Virus record (IMG/VR): IMGVR_UViG_3300027728_000027
Coordinates: 1-40,361 of that record
Length of the DNA stretch: 40,361 bases
DNA from: a virus
Reading direction: 5' to 3' (one strand)
Shown here: piece after piece, positions 10,199 through 37,377 of the stretch
How the letters are laid out: each line of letters starts with the position of its first letter
Position numbering within the stretch: position 1 is the first letter of the stretch
Position numbers and translations under genes: made by a program
Notes under the pieces: generated by a model
Database searches by the model: none
What the model was told of the DNA's origin: nothing
Seen by the model: the letters and a program-made list of their open reading frames with translations, nothing else

Positions 10199-11344
10199 TC
10201 ACCAGTCGGTCAACGCCCACAGCGTGTCGGGTAACGCTGGCGTCCAGGGCAGGGACTGGTCCAGCGCCGCGGACGCCTGGCTCCGGAACGCGCGCCACAT
10301 CTGCGTGGACGACAACAGGATGCCGCGCAGGGCGTGGAACTGGATCAGGGCGCCGTTCACGTCGTGGCCATCGGCCTTGAGTTGGCGCAACAGGTCGCCG
10401 AGCGGCGAGCCGATCTGATTGAGCCAGGCCGAGCTGTTGATCATGCCGTCGGCGCTACGCCGGTCGGGCTTCGCCAACTCCGCCGGGTAGTGGTAGCGCG
10501 TGGCCGCCGCCCGCGCGGGGGCAAAGCGGTCAATCACCTCGCCGAGGATCGTGGGGGAGGCGAGCGCCACCGGCGCCGGTTCCGGCAACGGCGCGATCCC
10601 GACCAACACCCCGTCGCGCAGCGTCACCAGGGCGCGTAGCTGGATCTCGACGCCTGCGCCGGCGGGCGGCGGCAGGCGCGAACCGCCGAGCGCGCCGAGC
10701 GTATCCAACACCGTGCGCGTCCACTCGCGCAGTCGGGCGGCGCGCGGGGTATGAATCAGCAGGCACAGCAGGTAGACACCCCACACCGAGAAGATGCGCA
10801 CCTGCGGCGTGCGCCCGTCACGGATCACCGCGGACATGCCCGCGAACTGGCCCCGGTTGCGGTGGAAGGTGTTCTGCACCAGGTGAAGACCTTCGCCCAG
10901 GGCGGCGGCGAGCGTTGAAGCGGCCAGCCAGGGGGCGCCGTCGCGCTCGATCACACGCAGGGTGGTGCCCTCGAAGTCGATGGTGGCGGGGATGGGTTGG
11001 GGCACGGCAGAGGGAGCCGCGTACCGTCCGGTCTTGCGGATGGTCGGGAGAATCTCCTCCACCACCAGGCGCTCGAACGCCTGGGCGCTGTCCAGGGTGG
11101 AACCGAAGATTAGACGGTAGAGGTCTGGCTCGCGGATGACGCGGGCCTCCTGCATCCGCCCCAAAGCATCCGGGATGGGGTGCAATTCCTGCACCCCACG
11201 GCAGTGGGACTTAACGGCAGTTGTCGGGTCCTTGTAACCGAGGGCTTCAGCAACGTCCTTGGCGACAAACAGCGGTTCGCCGTTGTCGTCGGTCAGGACG
11301 CGGACTTTGTGGGACTCAAACGAAAAGGGGACCAGGTTGGTCAT
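10199..11344 (-). CDS. BRO-N domain antirepressor-like protein
   Basis: The 381-residue product starts MTNLVPFSFESHKVRV. Residues 1-110 are a BRO-N/antirepressor domain (PLFVAKDVAEALGYKDP, LYRLIFGSTLDSAQAF, VVEEILPTIRKTGRY). A second, divergent BRO-N-like unit follows at about 125-230 (GAPWLAASTLAAALGEG to VYLLCLLIHTPRAARL). The C-terminal 130 residues are unassigned. BRO/ANT proteins typically inactivate phage repressors. The frame is open to 11494, but the extension covers the C4-like leader and is not coding. Expression is probably controlled by that leader. Confidence 0.82.
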   Translation of the reverse strand: MTNLVPFSFESHKVRVLTDDNGEPLFVAKDVAEALGYKDPTTAVKSHCRGVQELHPIPDALGRMQEARVIREPDLYRLIFGSTLDSAQAFERLVVEEILPTIRKTGRYAAPSAVPQPIPATIDFEGTTLRVIERDGAPWLAASTLAAALGEGLHLVQNTFHRNRGQFAGMSAVIRDGRTPQVRIFSVWGVYLLCLLIHTPRAARLREWTRTVLDTLGALGGSRLPPPAGAGVEIQLRALVTLRDGVLVGIAPLPEPAPVALASPTILGEVIDRFAPARAAATRYHYPAELAKPDRRSADGMINSSAWLNQIGSPLGDLLRQLKADGHDVNGALIQFHALRGILLSSTQMWRAFRSQASAALDQSLPWTPALPDTLWALTDW

Positions 11345-11480
11345 GGCATAACTCCAGAGCGTCTTTCCCGATGTCAAACGGGGATAGCGGACCGTGCGAG
11401 GTTGACATACCGGGCTCTGGGTCCGGCGCACCCGAAAGTGCCCCCGCACGGCCCTAAACTGGAGCCGCGCGTTCGTCCAT

Positions 11481-11504
11481 AAAAAAACCGCCAAGGCGGC
11501 GGTT
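11481..11504 (-). terminator. Terminator at the end of the C4-like RNA
   Basis: Minus-strand hairpin with stem AACCGCC pairing GGCGGTT (7 bp), loop of 5 nt, and a run of seven T (11487-11481). It lies about 140 nt before the BRO start and about 55 nt after the predicted transcription start, so it works as a premature terminator of the BRO transcript. Confidence 0.85.
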
Positions 11505-11556
11505 GTCCGCCAGAGTCTTCCGGGATGTCAAGCCCGACCGCTGGGACCCCAGCGGC
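11481..11556 (-). ncRNA. C4-type antisense RNA upstream of the BRO gene
   Basis: From a sigma-70-like promoter, about 76 nt of transcript form a hairpin at 11538-11555 (CCGCTGG arms), a CGGG-loop-CCCG hairpin at 11521-11536 whose loop carries CTTGACAT, and the terminator hairpin. The stretch CTTGACAT...CCCGG...CTCTGG (11510-11535) is complementary to the mRNA segment at 11400-11420, 56-76 nt before the BRO ATG. This is the layout of the C4 RNA of phages P1/P7 (about 77 nt), which represses antirepressor synthesis by pairing with its own downstream mRNA. A covariance-model hit has not been checked. Confidence 0.7.
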
Positions 11557-11562
11557 CCGCAG

Positions 11563-11592
11563 AGCATAGGTCGGGCGGGGCGCGGGTGTCAA
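11563..11592 (-). promoter_or_regulatory. Promoter of the C4-like RNA / BRO transcript
   Basis: On the minus strand a perfect -35 box, TTGACA (11592-11587), is followed after 18 bp by TATGCT (11568-11563). The brnT promoter starts 17 bp away in the opposite direction, so the two are back-to-back. Confidence 0.7.
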
Positions 11593-11608: not shown

Positions 11609-11642
11609 TTGACGGTATGGATAATTGTCTATATCGTTATCC
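11609..11642 (+). promoter_or_regulatory. brnTA promoter with overlapping operator-like inverted repeat
   Basis: TTGACG (11609-11614) and TATCGT (11632-11637) are 17 bp apart; TATATC at 15 bp is an alternative -10. An inverted repeat GGATAA-N12-TTATCC (11619-11642) covers the spacer and -10, ending just before the brnT ATG. BrnA antitoxins are known to repress their own operon, so this is a candidate BrnA operator. Confidence 0.55.
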
Positions 11643-11644
11643 GC

Positions 11645-11917
11645 ATGAACTTCACCTGGGACGAATCAAAGCGCACCACCAACCGGAAGAAACACGGGAT
11701 GGACCTGGCCGCTGCGGCAACGGCCTTCACCGGGCACACGTTCACCTTCGAGGATCGGCGCTTCGCCTATGGCGAACACCGATTTATCACCCTGGGGCTG
11801 TTGGGTGTCACCGTGGTCGTGATCGCACACACGGAAACATCCGACACGATTCACGTCATTTCCCTGCGCAAGGCCGATAAACATGAGCAACGCCACTATT
11901 ACCAGCAAGTGGGATGA
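11645..11917 (+). CDS. brnT: BrnT family toxin (ribonuclease)
   Basis: The 90-residue product matches the BrnT pattern: NFTWDESKRTTNRKKHGMDL at the N-terminus, then EDRRFAYGEHRFITLGLLG and IHVISLRKADKHEQRHYY at the C-terminus. BrnT is a RelE-fold toxin that cleaves RNA and is neutralised by BrnA. The ATG at 11645 is preferred over upstream starts because it begins the conserved domain. It overlaps brnA by 35 bp and has its own promoter. Toxin first, antitoxin second is the normal brnTA order. Confidence 0.88.
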   Translation: MNFTWDESKRTTNRKKHGMDLAAAATAFTGHTFTFEDRRFAYGEHRFITLGLLGVTVVVIAHTETSDTIHVISLRKADKHEQRHYYQQVG

Positions 11918-12179
11918 TACCGACCTGGATACGGCGCCGCCGGTGACTCAAGAGGACCTGGCCCGTGCCGTTCACCGCGTCGGACTACAGCCCGCGCCGG
12001 GTAAAAAAACCAAGATCAGCATTGCCCTGGACCCGGACGTGGTGTCATGGTTCAAGCACCAGTCAGGCGAGCGCGGCTATCAGACGCTGATCAACGCCAC
12101 GCTGCGCGAGGCCATGCAGCGCCGCACCCTTGAAGACACGTTGCGGCGGGTCATCCGCGAAGAGCTTCATCCCGCATGA
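11883..12179 (+). CDS. brnA: BrnA family antitoxin
   Basis: The 98-residue product has the BrnA layout: a toxin-wrapping N-terminal part, then a ribbon-helix-helix-like region, KTKISIALDPDVVSWFKHQS (about 42-61), and GYQTLINATLREAM. It ends in a helix (RRVIREELHPA). BrnA binds BrnT and represses the operon. The pair is inserted between the BRO/C4 locus and terminase, typical of a phage-borne accessory stabilisation module. Confidence 0.87.
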   Translation: MSNATITSKWDDTDLDTAPPVTQEDLARAVHRVGLQPAPGKKTKISIALDPDVVSWFKHQSGERGYQTLINATLREAMQRRTLEDTLRRVIREELHPA

Positions 12180-15121: not shown

Positions 15122-15640
15122 TCATTTACCCCTCACCATCGCCTCAAGTTCCGCGTCGCTCAGCTTCGTGATGTCTTTCGGGCCGGGGTCGTCGAGTGAC
15201 CACGCCTTGCGCTCCAGCGAATGGATGTTCATGAGAACCTCGCTCGATATCTTTGCCGCCTTCAAGTCGTCGAACGCCAGCGCCTTGGCCTGCTTATCTT
15301 CGGCCGCCTTGTGCGCCCTGACCGCGGTGTACAGCATTCCCCGAACCACCCCAGGCTCCTCCTGGTGGCGCCGCTGGACTTCCGCCGCTCGGTCGGCTGC
15401 TGCATTGATTGCTTCGGCTTTTTTAACGGGGTCTGCGTTGACTACGCCGTTGACCTTTGCGTTGACTTTTGCGCGAATCGCTGCGCCAACATCATCAGAA
15501 ACGCGCCATTCTCCGCGGGTTGCCTTGCGCGAGATCGCCGCCTTGTCAACATGGTGCCGGCCTTCAAGCTCGCGCAGGGTGGCCCCCGCCTCAAACTCGG
15601 CGCGAACCGTCTCCCACTGGTCTGCGGTTAGCCTTGGCAT
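15122..15640 (-). CDS. HTH protein, candidate terminase small subunit
   Basis: The 172-residue product has an N-terminal helix-turn-helix (WETVRAEFEAGATLRELEGR, then VDKAAISRKATRGEW), like Nu1/terminase-small-type DNA-binding domains. A helical middle rich in Ala, Lys and Gln follows, with a C-terminal tail (ITKLSDAELEAMVRGK). It lies upstream of the large terminase in the same run, though several small genes intervene. The terminase role is inferred from domain layout and context; a transcription regulator is the alternative. Confidence 0.55.
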   Translation of the reverse strand: MPRLTADQWETVRAEFEAGATLRELEGRHHVDKAAISRKATRGEWRVSDDVGAAIRAKVNAKVNGVVNADPVKKAEAINAAADRAAEVQRRHQEEPGVVRGMLYTAVRAHKAAEDKQAKALAFDDLKAAKISSEVLMNIHSLERKAWSLDDPGPKDITKLSDAELEAMVRGK

Positions 15641-17073
15641 AGCGTCGGGGTCCGCCCGGTATGGTCCTGGTATCGTTGAAGTGCGACCGCAACATACCCA
15701 GGGGATATTTCGCTCGCCCGCACGCGTCGGCCCAGGTTCTCGCCTGCGATAATGGTTGTTCCGGAGCCAGAGAATGGTTCGTAAACCAGCTCGCCCGTGT
15801 CGGTGGTGAGTTTCATGAAGAAACTCGGCAGCGTCACAGGGAACATGGCCGGGTGGTCAGCTTTTTCCATATTGTTTCGCAGCCAAAGCACATTACTCGG
15901 CCTTGCGATTCCGCTTCGATACTTTCCGTCAACCCCGACATTTCCATTCGCAGACAACCCGCTTTTGTCCTTGTCGTACACCCTGATCATTTTCGACTCC
16001 TTACCCGCGCATCTCGGGTTAAACTTTATTTTTTCCCGTCTCGTAAAGTGATAAATATCCTCATAAAGATCCACCATTGACGCATCACCAATGTCAGCAA
16101 ATCTTTCGGTATCGACATCAACGCACTGAACCATCCAGGTTATCTTGTCCCTTTTCGTGAAAAAATGCACTGGCTCGAAATCATTCTTCAACCTGTCCAT
16201 CCAGGCACCAGGCAACCCCGGCTTAGCCCAAATCAACTGATCGACATAGCGCCATCCAGCAGCCCGTAAGACCTTAATCGTCTCGAAAACATACAGCGAC
16301 CGCTCGCCGTCTTCGACGTGCTCCTTGATGTTGACGAAGAAGCTCCCATCGTCGGCCAGGTACCGCTGCACATTTGCTGCCACGCCCGCGAACCACTCCG
16401 GATACTGATCGACTGGCGTTCCACCATAACTGCTTTTGCGCTGCATGGCGTAAGGCGGCGAAGTAAAACAACAGTTGGCGAGTTCCCCGCCCATCAGCCG
16501 ACCGATGTCCGCTTCCGACGTACAATCCCCGCACAGCAGCCGGTGATCACCAAGAGCCCACAACTGGCCCGTGACAACACCCCACTTCTTGCGCAACTCC
16601 TCTGCTTGATCAACCTGCGGCGCGGTATCCGCATCAGCGTCTCTGTCCCCATCAGGCGTCGACTCGACCCCCCCCATCAGCGCATCCAACGCCTCCGCAT
16701 CAAACCCCGTCAGGTCCAGGTCGTAGTCCTCCAGCCGCAAATCCTCAAGCTCCAGCGCCAGCAACTCTTGATCCCACTCGGCAAGATCGGCCATCCGGTT
16801 GACGCTGATCCTGAACGCCTTGATCTGTGTGTCAGTCAGGTCATCGGCCAGCAGCACCGGGACCGTCTCAAGGCCCAGGCTGCGCGCGGCCTTCAGGCGC
16901 AAGTGACCGTCGACCACCAGTCCGTCCGATCTCGCCAGAATCGGCACTTTGAACCCGAACTCACGGATCGCTGCGGCAACGCGAGGCACCGCATGATCGT
17001 TCTTGCGCGGGTTGCGCGCGTACTCAACAAACCGATCCAGCGGCCAATACTCAAGCTCTTGATGCTCAATCAC
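15628..17073 (-). CDS. ParB-like domain fused to N4/N6 DNA methyltransferase
   Basis: The 481-residue product starts at GTG 17073 (GTGA overlap with the preceding gene). Residues about 1-100 form a ParB/Srx-type nuclease domain (FVEYARNPRKNDHAV, then FKVPILARSDGLVVDGHLRL). Residues about 185-470 form a methyltransferase with TSPPY (204-208) before FSGSGTT (434-440), the beta-class order of amino-methyltransferases acting on adenine or cytosine. No restriction enzyme is adjacent, so it probably modifies phage DNA for protection. The middle of the gene (about 15850-16150) is visibly more AT-rich than its neighbours, suggesting separate acquisition. Confidence 0.87.
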   Translation of the reverse strand: MIEHQELEYWPLDRFVEYARNPRKNDHAVPRVAAAIREFGFKVPILARSDGLVVDGHLRLKAARSLGLETVPVLLADDLTDTQIKAFRISVNRMADLAEWDQELLALELEDLRLEDYDLDLTGFDAEALDALMGGVESTPDGDRDADADTAPQVDQAEELRKKWGVVTGQLWALGDHRLLCGDCTSEADIGRLMGGELANCCFTSPPYAMQRKSSYGGTPVDQYPEWFAGVAANVQRYLADDGSFFVNIKEHVEDGERSLYVFETIKVLRAAGWRYVDQLIWAKPGLPGAWMDRLKNDFEPVHFFTKRDKITWMVQCVDVDTERFADIGDASMVDLYEDIYHFTRREKIKFNPRCAGKESKMIRVYDKDKSGLSANGNVGVDGKYRSGIARPSNVLWLRNNMEKADHPAMFPVTLPSFFMKLTTDTGELVYEPFSGSGTTIIAGENLGRRVRASEISPGYVAVALQRYQDHTGRTPTLCQG

Positions 17074-17351
17074 GAATGCACTCCCGCAGGCTCCCCCACA
17101 AACTTCACCACCACCCGGCTCGGCTGCTCCAGCGTCGGCTTTGGATTCAGCACGCACGCCAGGCCCGCCAGGCGCCCGTTCGGCATCGCCGCCCCGCAGG
17201 TGCAGATCGCCTCAACCCGGTCGGGCGCCTCGGCTTCGCACTGCGAACACCGGTACACCGCCCCCCCGGCCGGCCCCTGACGGCGCATGACCCGGCCAAA
17301 GCAGACCCGGCACACGTGATTCGTAAACTCCCACAGCGCGCCATCAGCCAT
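17070..17351 (-). CDS. Zinc-ribbon phage protein
   Basis: The 93-residue product has three Cys pairs: VCRVCFGRV, YRCSQCEAE and ICTCGAAM, compatible with one or two zinc ribbons, then a beta-like tail (RVVVKFVGEP). It overlaps both neighbours by a few bases (GTGA with the methyltransferase). A nucleic-acid-binding accessory role is plausible but not shown. Confidence 0.6.
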   Translation of the reverse strand: MADGALWEFTNHVCRVCFGRVMRRQGPAGGAVYRCSQCEAEAPDRVEAICTCGAAMPNGRLAGLACVLNPKPTLEQPSRVVVKFVGEPAGVHS

Positions 17352-18447: not shown

Positions 18448-18659
18448 ATCTATAACCAACCTAACCAACCTAACCAACCTAAAAGAGAGTTATATAAAAA
18501 TCGACGACAATAATCGACGACAATACCAAGGGGCCATATTGCTATTTCCTGGCGAAGAAATGAAAAACGCAAAAAGGTTGGTTAGGTTGGTTATGCCTTT
18601 GATGTCCTTAATAAAAAGGTTGGTTACTGAGGTTGGTAAGAGGTTGGTTAGGTTGGTTA
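18386..18659. repeat. Iteron cluster AGGTTGGTTA in an AT-rich tract, candidate replication origin
   Basis: At least twelve copies of AGGTTGGTTA occur. Plus-strand copies start at 18386, 18403, 18416 (partial), 18575, 18584, 18617, 18630 (partial), 18641 and 18650. Inverted copies start at 18453, 18462 and 18471 as a 9-bp-period tandem. The tract is much more AT-rich than its surroundings. It sits between the VapE/primase genes and the SSB-like gene. Iterons in an AT-rich tract beside replication genes fit an origin bound by a phage initiator. An operator array is the alternative. The stretch 18448-18656 holds no convincing gene. Confidence 0.7.
18499..18524. repeat. Tandem 13-bp direct repeat within the iteron region
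   Basis: Two perfect adjacent copies of AATCGACGACAAT lie between the inverted and direct iteron groups, next to a TATATAAAAA stretch. This may be the unwinding element or a second protein-binding site of the origin. Confidence 0.6.
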
Positions 18660-19967
18660 TTTTTTCTTTGGCCGGTAACACCACCCGCCTCCTGTAAGCT
18701 GCTTGCGCTCCCATCCTGCGCGCTTGAAGATCGCCGACACCCGCATCTGATCGGATCGAGTCTGCTTGCCCTTGTCGATGTTCAGGCAGGTGAACAGCGC
18801 GTCATACGTGGTGGTCTCCGGCTCTACTGGCGGAAATTTCAGGGGCGCATCCTTTATGATCTGAGCAAGCATCGCATGAATCGGCGTTTCCCATGGGTCC
18901 CCCACATAGCTTGCTTCCTGGTGCTCGATAGCATTGGGTATCGACCACCACTTGCCGGTCGTCCCATTAGCGACCCATGTCATGGCTTCGGCAAACAACT
19001 CGTCGCGCACCGCGGTAACGCCTTCGGCATCGATCTCGCTGTTCACGCGCACCGGAAGGAATCGACGCGCACCGGTGGAGTCTGTTTGCCAACTGTCGCT
19101 GTTGGTTCCGCCGACGAAGATGCACTGGCGAGGATGGCGCTGATGTCCGGTCTCAAACAGCCCGCGGTAGTTGTCCGTTTGGCTGGTAATAACCTGCTTG
19201 ATCCGCGTCGTCTCGGCCTTGCTGAACTGGTCCAGTTCGCCAAAGTCCGCGCACCATATTCCGCGCAGACCGATGAAAAAGTCTTTGCTGTTGAGGCTAT
19301 CAACCACTTCGGCGTACCAAGGGGAAAACAGCGCAGACCATAGTTTTGTCTTGCCTGCCCCCTGAACGCCCTCAAGGATCACCATCAAATCGACCTTGCA
19401 CCCTGGCTTGATGATACGCAGTACAGCGGAAATAAACAGCGCTCGCGCGACTGCGACATGATAGGGGTCTTCCCGCTTCGTTCCGCAGAACACACTGAAA
19501 AATTCATCAATACGCGGCGTTCCGTCCCATTTCAGCCCATTCAGATAGTCGAGCACTGGGTTGAACTGGTTGTGCTCCGCGACTGCTGCCAGGGCTTCCG
19601 CAACATCCGTAGTCGGGACCTTCTCGCCGGGTATCCAATGCCGCTCGATTTCGGCCTTGATCTTGGTTACCGCTACCTTTTTGGCATCCTGGCCGTCGAT
19701 GCTGACCTGCTCAGAAAACAGGTTCAGCTTGATGCGGTCCTTGAACATCGGCGCGTTCTGAAGGATCAGGATCAGGTTGTGAACCCGGCATACTACTTGG
19801 TCGCTGCCGTCATTATTGACTTTGACGATCAGCGCGTCGCGCCAATCGCCCGCGGCGCGTCGTGGCGCCTCCTGCTTTGGCTTAGACTCCGGCTTCCGCT
19901 TGATCCGGTCCAGAATATTGGCGACCACCGCGGGCTCTTGCCCCGGATCGGTGGGCTTATGGGTCAT
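18657..19967 (-). CDS. VapE/virulence-associated-E type ATPase (replicative helicase-like)
   Basis: The 436-residue product starts at ATG 19967, overlapping the primase stop (TGATG). The VapE domain has a Walker A loop, EGVQGAGKTKLW (199-210), then WCADFGELDQFSK as the likely Walker B/sensor region, and GGTNSDSWQTDSTGARRFLP, a strongly conserved VapE signature. The C-terminus resembles a winged helix (AIFKRAGWERKQL). Such proteins pair with a CHC2 zinc-finger primase module in phages and satellites. The stop codon lies inside the last iteron. Confidence 0.85.
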   Translation of the reverse strand: MTHKPTDPGQEPAVVANILDRIKRKPESKPKQEAPRRAAGDWRDALIVKVNNDGSDQVVCRVHNLILILQNAPMFKDRIKLNLFSEQVSIDGQDAKKVAVTKIKAEIERHWIPGEKVPTTDVAEALAAVAEHNQFNPVLDYLNGLKWDGTPRIDEFFSVFCGTKREDPYHVAVARALFISAVLRIIKPGCKVDLMVILEGVQGAGKTKLWSALFSPWYAEVVDSLNSKDFFIGLRGIWCADFGELDQFSKAETTRIKQVITSQTDNYRGLFETGHQRHPRQCIFVGGTNSDSWQTDSTGARRFLPVRVNSEIDAEGVTAVRDELFAEAMTWVANGTTGKWWSIPNAIEHQEASYVGDPWETPIHAMLAQIIKDAPLKFPPVEPETTTYDALFTCLNIDKGKQTRSDQMRVSAIFKRAGWERKQLTGGGWCYRPKKK

Positions 19968-20611
19968 CACGCCTTCACCCCATAGATCGCGTAAAGCGCC
20001 ACCACCAGCCGTTTCGCGGCCAGTATCTCGCGCTCCGAGATCGCATCCGGGACCGCCTGGATGTGCTGGTAGCGATTGCGCGTGGCTGCATCGATCTGTC
20101 GGTAGGTCACCCGCTCGCCGATCGCCATATCCAGAATCATCAGTTCCGGCCAGGCGGCGGACTCAAGCTCGCGCTGCATCGCAACCGCGCGGCGGCGCTT
20201 GGTCTCGCCGCGATCTTCAGGCTGAAGATCCATCCCGGCCCGGCCGGCGAGGGCTTCCAGCGCCTTGCGGAAGCTCAGTCGGTCATACTCTTGAAGCCAG
20301 TCCAGGGCATCGCCGTGCGCCCCGCAACCAAAACAGTGATAGAACTGCTTGCTCGGGCTGACCGTGAACGATGCGGTTTTCTCGTCATGGAACGGGCAGC
20401 ACGCTTGATAGTCGGTCCCGGCCTTGCGCAGTTCGACGGCATCGCCGATCAGATCGACGATATCGGTCGCGGCAAGAATGGCGCCGATATCGCACCGGTG
20501 GATGGTGTTGAGCGTCCGCGGGCGGTCGCTCGGTTTCTGACCGGCTGGCAGACAGTCATAGATCAGGTCCATACTGGGGCGGATTGCGGCCTCGTAGTCC
20601 TCGCGACTCAT
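19967..20611 (-). CDS. CHC2 zinc-finger primase module
   Basis: The 214-residue product contains the DnaG-type CHC2 zinc finger: CCPFHDEKTASFTVSP (C72, H75) and FYHCFGCGAHGDALDWLQ (C93, C96), followed by a helical part. The TOPRIM catalytic domain of full primases is absent, so it may supply template recognition to the VapE protein encoded next. Starts and stops are coupled to both neighbours (ATGA and TGATG). Confidence 0.82.
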   Translation of the reverse strand: MSREDYEAAIRPSMDLIYDCLPAGQKPSDRPRTLNTIHRCDIGAILAATDIVDLIGDAVELRKAGTDYQACCPFHDEKTASFTVSPSKQFYHCFGCGAHGDALDWLQEYDRLSFRKALEALAGRAGMDLQPEDRGETKRRRAVAMQRELESAAWPELMILDMAIGERVTYRQIDAATRNRYQHIQAVPDAISEREILAAKRLVVALYAIYGVKA

Positions 20612-29146: not shown

Positions 29147-30427
29147 ATGCCCGTAATCACCGCCCGCGTCTCCAGAAACATCGGCGCCGTTCACGCCGAC
29201 GGCGCCGTCCTGTCGACGCGCCGCCTGCCGGTTGCCGGAAAAATCCGCCCCGGCATCAAAGTGCTCACCAAGGCCGCCGCGGCCAACCCAGCGCTCGCCA
29301 AGTGCTACGCCGACGGACTCGCCGCGGGAGCCAGCTTTGACGAGATCAGCGTCGCACTGGGAAAGGTCCCCAAGGCGCCAAGCTGGCCGCTGACGCCGAA
29401 GAACGTCGGCTATTTCTCCGTCCGCCAAGGCGATTTTGCTACCCCTGGAGCAGCCGCCGAGATCATGGCGCGCTATGGCGAAGTCCGCACGGGCGACACC
29501 GAGCCGCGGCTGTACGCCTTCCCGATCATCTTCCCGTCCGACGCGCTCGACCTGGTGTTCCGCGAGCAGTTTGAAGCGTGGAAGGCCACCGAACTGCTGC
29601 GCTGGTCCGAGCCGGACCCGGACGCCGGCACGCTTCAGTGCATGAAGCGCGCCGATACCGCGCCGACCCCCGGCGCCGGGCGCCGCTGGGGCGGCCGTCC
29701 GACCGCGGTTGACCGTGCGTGCAATCCAAACGACTGCGACCTGTTCGCCAAGGGCGAGTGCAAACACGTCGCCACCTTGCACTTCTGGATCCCTGGCGTG
29801 AAGGGTGCAGGGGTCATCTCGATGACGTTCACCTCGCTGTACGCGTCCATGGGCATCGCCGAGACATTGGAGATGGTCCGCGCCGGGCTGGGGCGCATCA
29901 GCGGGCTGCACAACGGCGAGCCGATCTTCTGGCTCAGCAAGGGGCACGAAAAGGTCCGGCGAATGAACTGGGAGACCGGCAAGCCTGAGACCTCGCAGCA
30001 GTGGATTATCCGCCTGGAGGCGTCCGGGCTGGACATGATGGCGGTGCTCGGTGGGCCTGCGCCGACGGCCACGCTCCCGGCGCCGGCCCCAGTGCCGGCC
30101 TTGGCCGCGCCGGTACATGATCCGGAGCCAGCCCCCGCGGCCCCTGCCGTCGACCCCGCGCAGGCCGAGGGCCGCAAGTACTTGGGCGCCCTGTTCAGCA
30201 CGCTCGGGTGGGACCGGCAGACACAGCAGGAATGGCTGGACATCAACTTCCCGGATCGTGGGCGGATGCCGGACGTGAAAACCCTGGCAGCGATGGCGGC
30301 GAAGCTGGAGCCCTTGCTGTCGGTGACGCGGCCGGCTATCGACGTTCCGGTAGAAACCCCGGAAGACCCGGCCGGTCAGATCCATGACCAGGCACCGCCT
30401 GTCGGCACTGACGAGGTACCGTTCTGA
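29147..30427 (+). CDS. Gp3-like (recombination directionality factor-like) protein with SSB-type tip
   Basis: The 426-residue product (MPVITARVSRNIGAVHADGA) has a layout I associate with the Gp3-like recombination-directionality-factor family: an N-terminal part with YFSVRQGDFATPGAA, ARYGEVRTGDTEPRLYAFP, a Cys cluster (RACNPNDCDLFAKGECKHVA), and GVISMTFTSLYASMGIAET. A Pro/Ala linker and a small helical domain follow, ending GTDEVPF, an SSB-like acidic tip. Proteins like this are also annotated as putative metal-binding and sit beside SbcCD-type recombination genes, as here. Assignment is moderate. Confidence 0.6.
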   Translation: MPVITARVSRNIGAVHADGAVLSTRRLPVAGKIRPGIKVLTKAAAANPALAKCYADGLAAGASFDEISVALGKVPKAPSWPLTPKNVGYFSVRQGDFATPGAAAEIMARYGEVRTGDTEPRLYAFPIIFPSDALDLVFREQFEAWKATELLRWSEPDPDAGTLQCMKRADTAPTPGAGRRWGGRPTAVDRACNPNDCDLFAKGECKHVATLHFWIPGVKGAGVISMTFTSLYASMGIAETLEMVRAGLGRISGLHNGEPIFWLSKGHEKVRRMNWETGKPETSQQWIIRLEASGLDMMAVLGGPAPTATLPAPAPVPALAAPVHDPEPAPAAPAVDPAQAEGRKYLGALFSTLGWDRQTQQEWLDINFPDRGRMPDVKTLAAMAAKLEPLLSVTRPAIDVPVETPEDPAGQIHDQAPPVGTDEVPF

Positions 30428-31605
30428 TGAAAATCATGCACCTTGCCGACCTGCACTACGGTCCCAGGCATCTTGCCTGGATCGATCGCGCCATGACGCA
30501 CGCCGTCGACACCGCCATTGCCGCAGGATGCGACCTTGGCGTGATCGCGGGCGATAGCTTCGATCACGCCCTGAGCGTCCATGAGCCGGCTTTCGTGGCC
30601 TACGTCCGGCAGGTCCTGCGCTTGGCCGAGCACATGCCCGTCGTCGTGCTTCAGGGCACGCACAGCCATGACCGGCCAGGGTCGCTGGATGTGCTCAAGG
30701 CATTGCCGACCCGGCACCGGGTCATTGTCGCCGACGACCTCGGCGAGTACGAAGTCGCTGGGGTGCGCGTCTGCACGCTGCCGAGCCTCAACAAGGCCGA
30801 CCCGGACGTGATGGCGCAGGGCGCTCATGCCTGGACCGCCGCCGCGCTCGCCGAGTTTGCCGCCGCGCACGATGGCACCGACGGCATCCCCTCAATCCTG
30901 ATCACCCACGGCACCGTGACCGGCTGTAGCACCGAGTCCGGATACGCCATGGTGTCTCCCGATTTGGAGTTCTCCGTCGAGAACCTGGCCGCCGCCGACT
31001 GCGATGCGGTCCTTTTGGGGCATATCCATCGGCATCAGGTTTGGCCCAACGTCCGCACCCCGAGCGGCGCCCTGACCACCATCGCCTATCCGGGATCGCT
31101 CGCCCGCTTGGTCCACGGCCATCATGACCCCGTTGGGTTTCTGATCTGGACCGTTGAGCCAGGCCAGGCGACGTTTCAGTTCCACCCATCCCCGGCCCGG
31201 CAGCTTCTCGAAATCGCCTTCGATGGCCTGCCAGACATGGACCAACTGCGCGCCCTGGCCGCGACGGTGCAGCCCGATGACGCGGTAAGGATCAGGTGGG
31301 TAATCGACGAGGAACACGTCGCTTCGGTCGATAAGCAACTGATCCGCGATCTGTTCGCCGTGGCAGAAACCGTCAAGCTCGAACCGCGGGTGCTGCCGGT
31401 GCAGCGGGTGCGCGCGGCGGGGATTGGGCAGTCAACGAGCCTTGCTCAGAAACTGGCGTACTGGTCTGAGACCACCGGGAGCGAGGCGGCATTGGCGCGG
31501 CTTACCGATCGGCTAGAGATGCTGCAATCCCGTGACGTGGCGCAGATCGTTGAGAGCATCACGGGGCAGGCGGATGAACAGATTACGATGAGGGCGGCAG
31601 CATGA
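30427..31605 (+). CDS. SbcD/Mre11-like recombination nuclease
   Basis: The 392-residue product has the metallophosphoesterase motifs in order: DLHYG (8-12), AGDSFDH (41-47), LQGTHSHD (75-82), SILITHGTVTG, and LLGHIHRHQ. In most Mre11/SbcD/gp47 proteins the third motif is GNHD; here it reads GTHS, so a usual metal ligand is replaced. It partners the SbcC-like ATPase encoded 122 bp downstream. It processes DNA ends for phage recombination. Coupled starts (TGATG) with the Gp3-like gene. Confidence 0.87.
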   Translation: MKIMHLADLHYGPRHLAWIDRAMTHAVDTAIAAGCDLGVIAGDSFDHALSVHEPAFVAYVRQVLRLAEHMPVVVLQGTHSHDRPGSLDVLKALPTRHRVIVADDLGEYEVAGVRVCTLPSLNKADPDVMAQGAHAWTAAALAEFAAAHDGTDGIPSILITHGTVTGCSTESGYAMVSPDLEFSVENLAAADCDAVLLGHIHRHQVWPNVRTPSGALTTIAYPGSLARLVHGHHDPVGFLIWTVEPGQATFQFHPSPARQLLEIAFDGLPDMDQLRALAATVQPDDAVRIRWVIDEEHVASVDKQLIRDLFAVAETVKLEPRVLPVQRVRAAGIGQSTSLAQKLAYWSETTGSEAALARLTDRLEMLQSRDVAQIVESITGQADEQITMRAAA

Positions 31606-31730
31606 CACCAATCACCGCCACAATCGCCGGAGCCATTGGAACCAGGGATAGTCTAACAGTGGAGTATTTGCGGTCTGTATTGAACTACGAACTTCACGGA
31701 GAGTTTGCAAACCACGGAGATCACAAATGA
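31602..31730 (+). CDS. Tiny protein between sbcD- and sbcC-like genes, 42 aa
   Basis: ATG at 31602 overlaps the sbcD-like stop and its own stop overlaps the next ATG at 31727. MTPITATIAGAIGTRDSLTV; no family. It is lower in GC than its neighbours, as is the first about 430 bp of the next gene. Confidence 0.5.
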   Translation: MTPITATIAGAIGTRDSLTVEYLRSVLNYELHGEFANHGDHK

Positions 31731-34165
31731 CACCAAAGCAATTCACTATAACCGGATCGTTAGGAATCAAAGCCGGTCTCAACCGCGACACTCTCAGCAT
31801 GGACCTGAGCGCCATCCCAGATGATGCCTTGACGGTGGCGATTAAGGCAGACAATGGGGCTGGAAAATCAACAATTTTGAATATCGCATTAACGCCGTGG
31901 CTTGATCCTCCCATGCTTCCTGGTACTGTTTACGACGCTTTTGGAGAAACGGGATCGCGTGAACTCATCTGGTGTCATGGTGATCTGACATATCGAACCT
32001 TGATCCATTACAAAAATGGCAAGACAAAATCGACTCGCGCTTATCTGCATGTTCAGCAAGGCGACGATTGGCAGCCGGTAGCATTGCCTGACAATACCGT
32101 TTCTGATGGAAAGTCTAGTACATACCGGCAGTGCCTCTCCCACATCCTGGGCGACCCTGGGATCTACTACTTGTCGGCCTTCCGCGCCCAGAACGCCCCC
32201 AAGCTCGCCGAGCACGACGATCCAAAGGGCCTGATGCGCGCCCTGCTCAACCTTGACGAGCCCGCGCGCCTGTCGGACCTCGCTCGCGACGTGGCCCGCG
32301 ATCTCAAGCGCCATCACGAAGGCTTGCGCGCTCAGGTTGCCAATCTGGACGGCCACCCGGCCCGCCTGACCGCCCTGGACGCTGCAATATTGGGTTTACG
32401 CTCAGGTCACACGGCCCGCGTCGAGGCCAAGCTGACTACCCTGGACACCGCCGCCCGCGCCAAAGCCGAATTGGATCGAGCCGTCAGCGGAGACCTTGAC
32501 CGTCAACGCCTGATCGACCAACGCGCCGCGGTACAGCGCCGGCTGGACGAGGCGACCGGCAGCACGACGGATGCGATCCAGCAAGCGCAGCGCGCCCACG
32601 CAGCGGCCGTGCAGCGGGTCGCCGATGCCAAACGCCACGCGACCGCCACGCTGGCCACCCTGAACCGCGACCTGACCGCCGCGCAGGCCCGCGCTACCGC
32701 CGCTCAAGCCACGCTGGACCAACGCGACGCGATCACCCAAGCGCAGGCCGATGTTGACGCCCTGGCCACGCAGATTGCAGATCAGGAGCAGACAGTCGCC
32801 GCCCTGGCAGACCAACTGAGCACCCTGCGCGACCTCGCCGGCCAGGTCCGCACCCTAGAGGCGCAGCAAGCCGCCGCCGCTCAGGCCGGTAAAGCGTGCG
32901 CCAGCAAGGTTAACGACCTGAATGCTCGCATCGCCGACCTCAACGCCCGCGCCGGGTTCGTTGCTGTGGTTCCGTGCCGCGGGGAAGGCCAGTATGCCGC
33001 CTGCCCGGCACTGCAAGACGCCATAGACGCCCGCGCCATTGCAGACAAGCACATCGCCTTGCTGCCCGCAGCCACGGCCGAAACCGAGGCCAAGCGCGCC
33101 GAGTGGAAGGCCATCGCAGCCCAGATCGCAGCCCTTGCCGGGCAGACCGTTGCCCTGCCTGAGTGCATGGAGGCCCATAGCGCGGCCGTGACCCTGATCA
33201 ACACCCTGCGCACCAGGCTGGATGCGGTACGGGCCGTCGCCACCCGCGGGGCCACCCTGGAGTTGGCCGACCAGCACCTGGCCGAGGCGCGTGCCGCCGT
33301 CGCCGACCTGACCGCGCGCCAGACCGACACTCAGGCCGACGCAGCGCGCCGCCTGGCCGCCTTGGAGCAGGAGGCCGACGCCGCCGGCATCGCCGTGCAC
33401 GCGGCCGAGACCCTGGCTGCGCATACCCGCGATGCCCTGCGCGCCGAGCTCTCTGCCATCCCTGAGCCCGGTACCGATCAGGCGATCACCCAGGCCCGCG
33501 CCGCCCTGGCCGCCGCCGAGACCGCGGTGGAAGATGCCAAGGCGGCAATGACTCAAGCCGCGGCAGACATCGCCCAGCACCAAGCAGAACAAACCGCCCT
33601 GCGCGCCGCCCTAGACCAAGGGGCCGCGGTCATCGCGCAACGCGACCACCTGGCCGCCGAGATCGCCGACTGGACGCTGCTCGGGATGGGATTGCGAGGC
33701 GTGATCGACCTGTCGATTGAGGACGCCGGACCCAGCATCGCCGCCACGGCGAACCGCCTGCTGACCGATGCCTACGGGCCGCGGTTCTCGGTGCGGATCG
33801 TGACCCAGCGTGACCAGGCCAACGGCCGGACCGTTGAGACCTTCGACATCTCCGTGATCGACGCCGACTCAGGCATGGAGTCCAGCATCCTGCAAAAGTC
33901 TGGCGGCGAGGCCGTTTGGATCGACAAGGCTCTCACCGATGCAGTTGGCCTGTACCACCAGGAAGCGGCAGGGGTCCACTACGAAACCCTGTTCGCCGAC
34001 GAGTCCGAGGACGGCCTGACCCAGGAGCGCAAGGCGCAGTTCTACCGGATGGACCGCGCCGCCCTGGAGATGGGCGGGTATCAGCGGAAATACTTCGTGT
34101 CGCATAACCCGGACGCATGGGCTTATGCAGACCACGTGATTGATCTGGCGCAGTATCGGGTGTAA
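31727..34165 (+). CDS. SbcC/Rad50-like ATPase
   Basis: The 812-residue product has a Walker A loop, IKADNGAGKSTILN (39-52), two long Ala/Gln/Asp-rich coiled-coil arms (about 190-410 and 435-640), the signature motif QKSGGEAVWIDKA (about 720-732) and Walker B ETLFADESEDG (about 752-762). Between the arms the hook position holds C417 and C426 (PCRGEGQYAACP), spaced C-x8-C instead of C-x2-C. It forms the end-processing complex with the SbcD-like protein. Its first about 430 bp have lower GC than the rest. Confidence 0.87.
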   Translation: MTPKQFTITGSLGIKAGLNRDTLSMDLSAIPDDALTVAIKADNGAGKSTILNIALTPWLDPPMLPGTVYDAFGETGSRELIWCHGDLTYRTLIHYKNGKTKSTRAYLHVQQGDDWQPVALPDNTVSDGKSSTYRQCLSHILGDPGIYYLSAFRAQNAPKLAEHDDPKGLMRALLNLDEPARLSDLARDVARDLKRHHEGLRAQVANLDGHPARLTALDAAILGLRSGHTARVEAKLTTLDTAARAKAELDRAVSGDLDRQRLIDQRAAVQRRLDEATGSTTDAIQQAQRAHAAAVQRVADAKRHATATLATLNRDLTAAQARATAAQATLDQRDAITQAQADVDALATQIADQEQTVAALADQLSTLRDLAGQVRTLEAQQAAAAQAGKACASKVNDLNARIADLNARAGFVAVVPCRGEGQYAACPALQDAIDARAIADKHIALLPAATAETEAKRAEWKAIAAQIAALAGQTVALPECMEAHSAAVTLINTLRTRLDAVRAVATRGATLELADQHLAEARAAVADLTARQTDTQADAARRLAALEQEADAAGIAVHAAETLAAHTRDALRAELSAIPEPGTDQAITQARAALAAAETAVEDAKAAMTQAAADIAQHQAEQTALRAALDQGAAVIAQRDHLAAEIADWTLLGMGLRGVIDLSIEDAGPSIAATANRLLTDAYGPRFSVRIVTQRDQANGRTVETFDISVIDADSGMESSILQKSGGEAVWIDKALTDAVGLYHQEAAGVHYETLFADESEDGLTQERKAQFYRMDRAALEMGGYQRKYFVSHNPDAWAYADHVIDLAQYRV

Positions 34166-36954: not shown

Positions 36955-37119
36955 ATGATGACCTTGAATGAGATGGCAGCCGCGTTGAATGTTCCGCTGA
37001 CTTTCCTGTTGACCGGCCGGGCACGACCGAGCAAGCCCCGACTCAAGGTCCTGCCAGGGGGCAAGGCGCCAACGCCGCAGGACGAGCCGACCCCGCGGCC
37101 GGAGGACGAGCGTGCTTGA
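36955..37119 (+). CDS. Small protein with HTH-like fragment, 54 aa
   Basis: ATGATG at 36955/36958 directly follows the previous stop. MMTLNEMAAALNVPLTFLLT recalls the last helices of XRE-type HTH domains; the rest is a Pro/Lys-rich tail. It could be a real small regulator or a remnant. Its stop overlaps the -35 box of the next promoter. Confidence 0.5.
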   Translation: MMTLNEMAAALNVPLTFLLTGRARPSKPRLKVLPGGKAPTPQDEPTPRPEDERA

Positions 37120-37145
37120 CAGTCGATCCGTCCGAGGGCTAGGCT
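37116..37145 (+). promoter_or_regulatory. Promoter of the C4-like RNA / Rha-ANT transcript
   Basis: Perfect TTGACA (37116-37121), 18 bp, TAGGCT (37140-37145). The same -35 box, 18-bp spacing and a similar -10 precede the BRO-linked C4-like RNA on the other strand. Confidence 0.65.
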
Positions 37146-37149
37146 TTCT

Positions 37150-37231
37150 GCGTCGCCCATCAAGGCGACCGGGTTTGACAGCCCGAGCAGAGCGGCATCA
37201 GGCCGCACGTGTCCCGCACAGCGGCTTTTTT
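37150..37231 (+). ncRNA. C4-type antisense RNA upstream of the Rha/ANT gene
   Basis: About 82 nt with hairpin GTCGCC-N6-GGCGAC (37152-37169), a CGGG-loop-CCCG hairpin (37170-37185) whose loop contains TTTGACAG, and GCCGC...GCGGC followed by six T (37202-37231) as terminator. GCGGC at 37192-37196 can instead pair with GCCGC at 37202-37206, excluding the terminator stem. Segments CGGGTTTGACAG (37170-37181) and GCAGAGC (37187-37193) are complementary to CTGTCAACCCG (37300-37310) and GCTCTGC (37289-37295) in the same transcript. Order, size and target placement match phage P1/P7 C4. Confidence 0.72.
37202..37231 (+). terminator. Terminator at the end of the C4-like RNA
   Basis: GCCGC (37202-37206) and GCGGC (37221-37225) enclose an inner GTG/CAC pair; six T follow (37226-37231). 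An alternative upstream hairpin (37192-37206) uses the same left arm, so the terminator may be conditional. Confidence 0.7.
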
Positions 37232-37232
37232 C

Positions 37233-37334
37233 ATGCCCGAGATCCCAGTTATGGGTGGTCCGGGCGGGAAGCCGCGAGGCTTGCCGGTGCTCTGCCGGTC
37301 TGTCAACCCGCCCGGTCCGCCCGCCATCGTTTGA
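37233..37334 (+). CDS. Leader ORF between the C4-like RNA and the antirepressor gene (icd-like)
   Basis: ATG at 37233, right after the terminator T-run, opens 33 codons (MPEIPVMGGPGGKPRGLPVL...) that span the antisense target. In P1 a short icd frame couples C4 control to ant translation. Here the frame stops 44 bp before the ANT start, so coupling is uncertain. It may be a regulatory leader peptide or chance. Confidence 0.3.
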   Translation: MPEIPVMGGPGGKPRGLPVLCRSVNPPGPPAIV

Positions 37335-37377
37335 CAGCGTTGGTGCGCGGTTCGTCAACGAACCAGAGCATCCCATC

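Follow-up and report, generated by a model that had tools for sequence, protein, structure and literature searches.

The region in front of the BRO-N gene of this virus raises the question of whether it encodes an antisense RNA of the C4 type, and of which of its segments act as the antisense RNA and as its targets. The window, that is the whole stretch of DNA analysed here at the sequence level, corresponds to a whole IMG/VR record of 40,361 bases and contains this left locus as well as a similar locus in its right arm. A sequence-only reading had taken the RNA at 11556-11480 for C4 and a leader segment at 11400-11420 for its mRNA target. These two stretches are complementary, but the assignment was refuted by Rfam family searches: the C4 fold and the Rfam match are located at 11459-11380 on the minus strand, downstream of the terminator, whereas the RNA at 11556-11481 matches the families c4-a1b1 and isrK, and the supposed target is actually the a'/b' part of C4. 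We give the original assignment practically no chance. The antisense RNA and one target had been exchanged, and a further target, a2/b2 (11377-11354) at the ribosome-binding site, had been missed. The second C4-type locus itself is real, with a score above the cut-off of RF01695, and it gives the phage another, separately coded copy of a known RNA switch that holds off a repressor-disabling protein.

Anatomy of the left and right loci

The left C4 exceeds the curated cut-off of RF01695 (45 bits) and is located upstream of an antirepressor-family gene on the same strand; its family membership and its pairing are well supported. The promoter and the strong terminator were found as the sequence-only reading had described them, and the order of the elements is, as it had stated, the same as in the right-arm locus. 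The leader RNA has its predicted 3' end at the intrinsic terminator. A GG start is present in C4 at 11454, where the cut by RNase P is putative. Between C4 and the start codon at 11344, the minus strand reads TTTGACATCGGGAAAGACGCTCTGGAG; the target a2/b2 overlaps here the ribosome-binding site of the BRO-N gene, and b2 overlaps the GGAG. The identity of this gene was confirmed, its product matching Pfam Bro-N (E 1.1e-23) and the PHROG anti-repressor Ant (E 9.8e-48, with the Met left out of the scan). The Rha/ANT product of the right arm also matches the PHROG anti-repressor Ant (E 9.3e-31), and the right-arm locus repeats the design of the left one as a further module with insulated pairing.

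Table. Features of the left and right C4 loci in the window.
Feature	Position	Strand	Evidence or remark
Left locus, sigma70-type promoter TTGACA-N18-TATGCT	11563-11592	-	agrees with the consensus at 10 of 12 positions; 0.1 such sites in shuffles
Leader RNA of the c4 transcript (a1b1 / IsrK-type), 76 nt	11481-11556	-	isrK and c4-a1b1 matches
a1 TTGACAT	11525-11531	-	loop of CGGG..CCCG hairpin (11536-11521); isrK positions 26-32
b1 CTCTGG	11510-11515	-	complements the C4 b' loop
Antiterminator 5' arm GGCGG	11507-11511	-	first 2 nt common with b1; partner CCGCC 11502-11498
Strong intrinsic terminator, AACCGCCGCCTTGGCGGTT and T run	11481-11504	-	
C4 antisense RNA, three-stem structure	11380-11459	-	Rfam RF01695, 50.1 bits; fold z -2.58
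C4 b' loop ACCCAGAGC	11414-11422	-	Rfam match and pairing
C4 a' linker ATGTCAA	11402-11408	-	pairing
a2 TTGACAT, second C4 target	11371-11377	-	duplex energy of C4 with a2b2
b2 and Shine-Dalgarno GCTCTGGAG	11352-11360	-	
BRO-N antirepressor-family gene, 381 aa, ATG 11344-11342	10199-11344	-	Pfam and PHROG
Right locus, promoter-like TTGACA-N18-TAGGCT	37116-37145	+	read by eye; absent from the stricter consensus scan
Right a1b1 / IsrK-type leader	37152-37231	+	isrK 31.4 bits, E 2.9e-5; c4-a1b1 41.6 bits, E 1.9e-9
Right a1	37175-37181	+	
Right b1	37187-37193	+	
Right terminator arms; T run	37202-37206 and 37221-37225; 37226-37231	+	
Right C4 antisense RNA	37247-37328	+	RF01695, 63.6 bits, over the cut-off
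Right a2 (37331-37337) and b2 (37363-37369)	37331-37369	+	-20.2 kcal/mol; 0 of 2000 shuffles as good
Right Rha/ANT antirepressor-family gene, 254 aa	37378-38142	+	Pfam Phage_pRha, E 3.5e-14

A BLAST search of the left locus against phage records gave short and weak matches only, and the terminase of the window had no match in the five C4-bearing genomes compared in the host search. A BrnT/BrnA-type toxin-antitoxin pair (11609-12179 (+); Pfam E 1.9e-21 and 2.6e-13) is divergent from the left C4 promoter, and an inverted repeat GGATAA..TTATCC is found in the promoter region of this pair. The window also contains a ParB_N and DNA methylase gene (15628-17157 (-)), adjoining genes of SbcD- and SbcC-like subunits within 30427-34165 (+) (PHROG E 1e-23 and 1e-17) and, on the other strand from the latter, a VapE-like gene (18657-19970 (-)).

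Pairing codes and number of C4 loci per phage

The complementary blocks TTGACAT/ATGTCAA and CTCTGG/CCAGAG noticed earlier in the left locus were recovered, and duplex energies were calculated for each C4 with the targets of both loci. The left C4 pairs with its own a2b2 at -20.0 kcal/mol and with its own a1/b1 at -17.0 kcal/mol; taking both loci together, the own pairs range from -17.0 to -23.2 kcal/mol, and in each case 0 of 2000 shuffles were as good. With the targets of the other locus, the energies are of -7.3 to -11.4 kcal/mol, values that 233 to 566 of 2000 shuffles also reach. Since each C4 fits its own targets and not those of the other locus, the left and right C4 are insulated from each other as far as predicted pairing energies tell. 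The sequence-only reading had considered insulation or partial cross-talk; the first is supported, and the second was rejected, the common TTGACA block alone being insufficient. The b' loops of the left C4 (11422-11414 (-)) and of the right C4 (37288-37294 (+)) are complementary to one another over 6 bp (-8.7 kcal/mol), and the two RNAs could kiss through them; such b'-b' kissing was not seen in two other two-C4 phages, the only ones checked.

Two C4 loci in one phage had been regarded as unusual. A manual count over viral records of 30 kb or longer in which a C4 passes the cut-off gave more than one such locus in 11 of 55; the records had been picked via a C4 pattern and include some near-identical strains. 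Several C4 loci per phage are a recurring feature, uncommon and not extraordinary. The phage loci were collected with an exact pattern, which favours one a' code and certain stems, and were collapsed at a threshold of 80 per cent similarity over leader and core; among the pattern candidates from genome contigs, 47 of 117 failed the stem check and were dropped.

In the multi-C4 phages, C4 pairs with its own a2b2 at -18.7 kcal/mol on average, versus -10.7 kcal/mol with that of the sister locus (27 and 32 comparisons, window included; p 3e-9). The recoded a' linkers of these phages (AGTACCAA, CGACCAA, CTGCAAA, TCGCCAA and others) have their counterpart in a correspondingly recoded a1, placed in a hairpin loop of the leader, at 10 of 11 loci, and in a matching a2 at all 11. 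The nearest relative of the BRO-N protein (64% identical over the N-terminus) is preceded by a C4 that has AGACCAA for ATGTCAA, with TTGGTCT on both sides. Because a recoded a' is accompanied by matching a1 and a2, both flanking copies appear to stay in step with C4. The same co-variation is observed between b1 and its own b' loop, with a mean score of 7.08 against 4.36 for swapped loops (sd 0.115; 59 non-redundant phage loci). Phages hold several C4 switches that are predicted to be insulated, and their pairing codes are readable from sequence.

Leader RNA, terminator and proposed mechanism

The left leader matches isrK (RF01394) over the full length of the model (1-77) with 47.6 bits (E 1.7e-9; cut-off 50) and c4-a1b1 (RF03163) at 11569-11517 with 44.1 bits (E 3.3e-10; cut-off 46.7), both scores being about 3 bits short of the cut-offs. 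The P1 leader reaches 35.1 bits with isrK and 51.0 bits with c4-a1b1. The isrK model matches 68 among 90 viral records with the C4 pattern (79 of them with C4 over the cut-off), and each of the 20 viral matches above the isrK cut-off is followed immediately by a C4 in the same orientation (manual comparison). In 369 genomes of one class that were not chosen for C4, isrK matches were detected in 25; when isrK loci were then scanned in those genomes, C4 was found directly downstream on the same strand in 20 of 20, with 18 over the C4 cut-off. The leader of a C4-type locus is what IsrK represents. This joins isrK and C4, RNA families that are separate in Rfam and are kept apart in a 2025 review (PMC12197685). 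Two genomes contain six (G519) and five (G413) isrK matches, and three matches within 1.4 kb of one contig (C9 of G413) suggest clustered C4-type modules. In L331 and L409, the Rfam int-alpA RNA is a close neighbour of C4, at a distance of no more than about 1.2 kb.

Of 66 non-redundant phage loci, 49 have a terminator hairpin and T run in the interval from b1 to C4, and 39 of these 49 have a rival hairpin that uses the 5' arm of the terminator and starts inside b1 in nearly all cases. For 38 genome loci unlike the phage set, the terminator was found in 19 and the rival hairpin in 14, with offsets mostly of -2. An overlap of 2 nt between b1 and a putative antiterminator arm that faces an intrinsic terminator is thus present in roughly 50 to 75 per cent of C4 loci. 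A 5-mer complementing the terminator's 5' arm peaks sharply two bases before b1 ends (own score 4.15, swapped score 3.66; z 6.4), the score upstream of this peak being about 1.9; in this test the position of b1 was fixed solely by its complementarity to C4 and that of the terminator solely by its own fold. The left locus has both elements, an intrinsic terminator upstream of the controlled genes (11504-11481) and a rival antiterminator overlapped by the antisense target b1. Attenuation is not universal, as about one in four phage loci and one in two of the new genome loci have no recognisable terminator. The C4 loci with a1/b1 and no recognisable terminator before C4 include L015, L126, L135, L140, L150, L175, L183 and L187, among others.

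Modelled on the 49 phage loci, the terminator probability is 0.50 for the free leader, 0.88 with a1 and b1 blocked, which favours the terminator partly by construction, and 0.79 with b1-arm1 shuffled (p 6e-7). The corresponding values are 0.31, 0.71 and 0.62 for 19 further genome loci (p 0.014), and 0.57, 0.84 and 0.79 for the phage set with the 5' hairpin included (p 0.003). The right leader passes from 0.47 to 1.00 on blocking, and the left leader from 0.22 to 0.90 when it is folded from the a1 hairpin on. Folded from its predicted start, the left terminator wins at equilibrium with 0.89 without C4 versus 0.97 with C4, similarly to the P1 leader (0.97 versus 0.98), and the left antiterminator is nearly complete or dominant in the model only until the last arm is made. 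Since the left terminator wins at equilibrium either way, the left switch would have to be kinetic. In the leaders of most C4 loci (e.g. L017, L024, L030, L032), the T run is followed by a fourth arm, often CGTCC, whose pairing partner is the arm 1 extension GGACG (5.58 versus 4.62 swapped, sd 0.15); this pairing would bracket the terminator in the read-through RNA, and it is absent at the left locus, where it was looked for.

We propose that a single transcript would yield all parts, in the order promoter, leader (a1/b1 and terminator), C4, a2/b2 at the ribosome-binding site and antirepressor gene. In a cell that does not yet contain C4, the leader would fold as antiterminator, the operon would be read, and C4 and the antirepressor mRNA would be made. 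C4 would then be cut from the transcript, presumably by RNase P, and its a' linker and b' loop would pair with a2/b2 and block the translation of BRO-N, as in P1. Accumulating C4 would pair with a1/b1 of the nascent leader; as b1 and the antiterminator arm overlap, this pairing should leave the terminator hairpin free to form, and transcription would stop before C4 and the antirepressor. It is from this geometry, in which C4 on b1 removes the antiterminator, that we infer the direction of the attenuation, and its size is likewise a prediction. The terminated leader would be an IsrK-like small RNA that may also bind C4 and set the level of free C4; this sponge action is compatible with attenuation, and we place it between rather doubtful and evenly balanced. 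A resident prophage would silence the antirepressor of an incoming phage with the same code, and a module with a second code would work independently. That the left locus forms such an immunity module of the C4 type, with all its parts, seems likely to us. Autoattenuation of its own operon by C4 seems somewhat probable for the family, and the chances are about equal either way for the left locus.

The short RNA ending at the terminator might instead be the regulator. The leader (11556-11481) would then act in trans like IsrK, bind a'/b' of C4 or the read-through RNA and turn the antirepressor on, the terminator serving merely to make the leader RNA. The full-length isrK match of the left leader is consistent with this, as is the behaviour of the Salmonella prophage Gifsy-1, where IsrK supplied in trans increases the transcription of anrP 8-fold and its translation 139-fold, an activity that depends on G28 and G31 (PMC4825925). 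The changes G28A/G31A fall within isrK positions 26-32, which correspond to a1 in 8 of 8 loci printed, a mapping based on positions and published numbers and not on the Gifsy-1 sequence. The 8-fold increase in transcription would also be expected if IsrK draws C4 off the attenuator. Regulation by the leader is not exclusive of attenuation, which would yield the same short RNA, and it leaves the exact seat of the antiterminator arm on the b1 end unexplained; we regard it as a tentative possibility with the odds somewhat against it. The same overlap of b1 and antiterminator is left unexplained if a1/b1 pairs mainly in cis with C4 of the same precursor, C4 remaining inactive until its release by RNase P and the terminator being a constitutive brake. 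This arrangement is suggested by the presence of a1/b1 and a'/b' on one transcript and by the isrK-orf45 intramolecular helix of Gifsy-1, seen on native gels and restored by compensating changes (PMC4825925), but the Gifsy-1 double mutants display 224 and 327 units versus 4 for the wild type (PMC4825925, Table 1), so the restored helix does not restore repression. Such values would be expected if a' must also pair with a2. The mutations C159U and C162U, which raise anrP strongly (PMC4825925, Table 1), would hit a'. We judge the cis arrangement unlikely.

The left locus could also be a decayed copy, whose C4 fold and pairings are kept by recent descent and which is not expressed. Its Rfam score is below that of the right locus (50.1 versus 63.6 bits) and it is missing the arm-4 pairing of most relatives, but the promoter, both target copies, the ribosome-binding site and the open BRO-N frame are intact, and the pairing code shows consistent recoding when compared with the right locus and with that of the nearest relative. 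The left stretch also occurs unchanged in three further contigs; being identical, they are neutral on this point. Decay seems very improbable to us.

Comparison with known systems

The chances appear evenly split that IsrK and the P1-type c4-a1b1 are the same element, namely a C4-locus leader, with C4 attenuating via the antiterminator and being titrated by the terminated leader, and with several recoded and insulated modules per temperate phage for different antirepressors. The published IsrK mutants become readable as C4 mutants, and the long-known a1/b1 copy of P1 gains a testable job.

The left locus shares with the P1/P7 C4 (RF01695; immI operon c4-icd-ant) the fold, the order promoter-a1b1-C4-a2b2-antirepressor, the pairing by two blocks and the target over the ribosome-binding site, and with P1 the same three-arm antiterminator/terminator layout. 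The P1 record labels a1 and b1 as 'putative target site for C4 RNA'. Unlike in P1/P7, there is no icd between a2b2 and the antirepressor gene, a BRO-N protein replaces P1 Ant, the a'/b' code is different and the phage has two modules. The leaders of both loci have the same place and the same hairpins as c4-a1b1, although left and right (44.1 and 41.6 bits) are below the cut-off of this family, whose model spans 53 nt and leaves the terminator out. The main text of Weinberg 2010 mentions c4-a1b1 by name only (PMC2864571).

In Gifsy-1, IsrK is an sRNA that ends at a terminator, read-through leads into an operon with an antirepressor gene, and farther downstream an RNA of about 80 nt, STnc1160, arises by processing (PMC4825925), at the place that C4 occupies in the left locus; the left match to isrK is full-length and ends at the terminator. 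The differences are the score of the left leader, below the isrK cut-off, and the trans activation and orf45 leader gene of Gifsy-1. Its authors liken the set to the P4 CI RNA, leave P1 and C4 unmentioned and propose a structural switch, not attenuation (PMC4825925). In the satellite phage P4 (seqA / CI / seqC), a processed antisense RNA also lies between two complementary copies in its own transcript and acts by premature termination (PMC4825925). P4 immunity governs replication genes and not an antirepressor, and the likeness considered here is one of layout. In the plasmids pT181 and pIP501, an antisense RNA blocks an antiterminator and the intrinsic terminator forms. Their RNA comes from the opposite strand, whereas C4 would be released from the very transcript with which it pairs, and the ribosome-binding site provides it with a second target.
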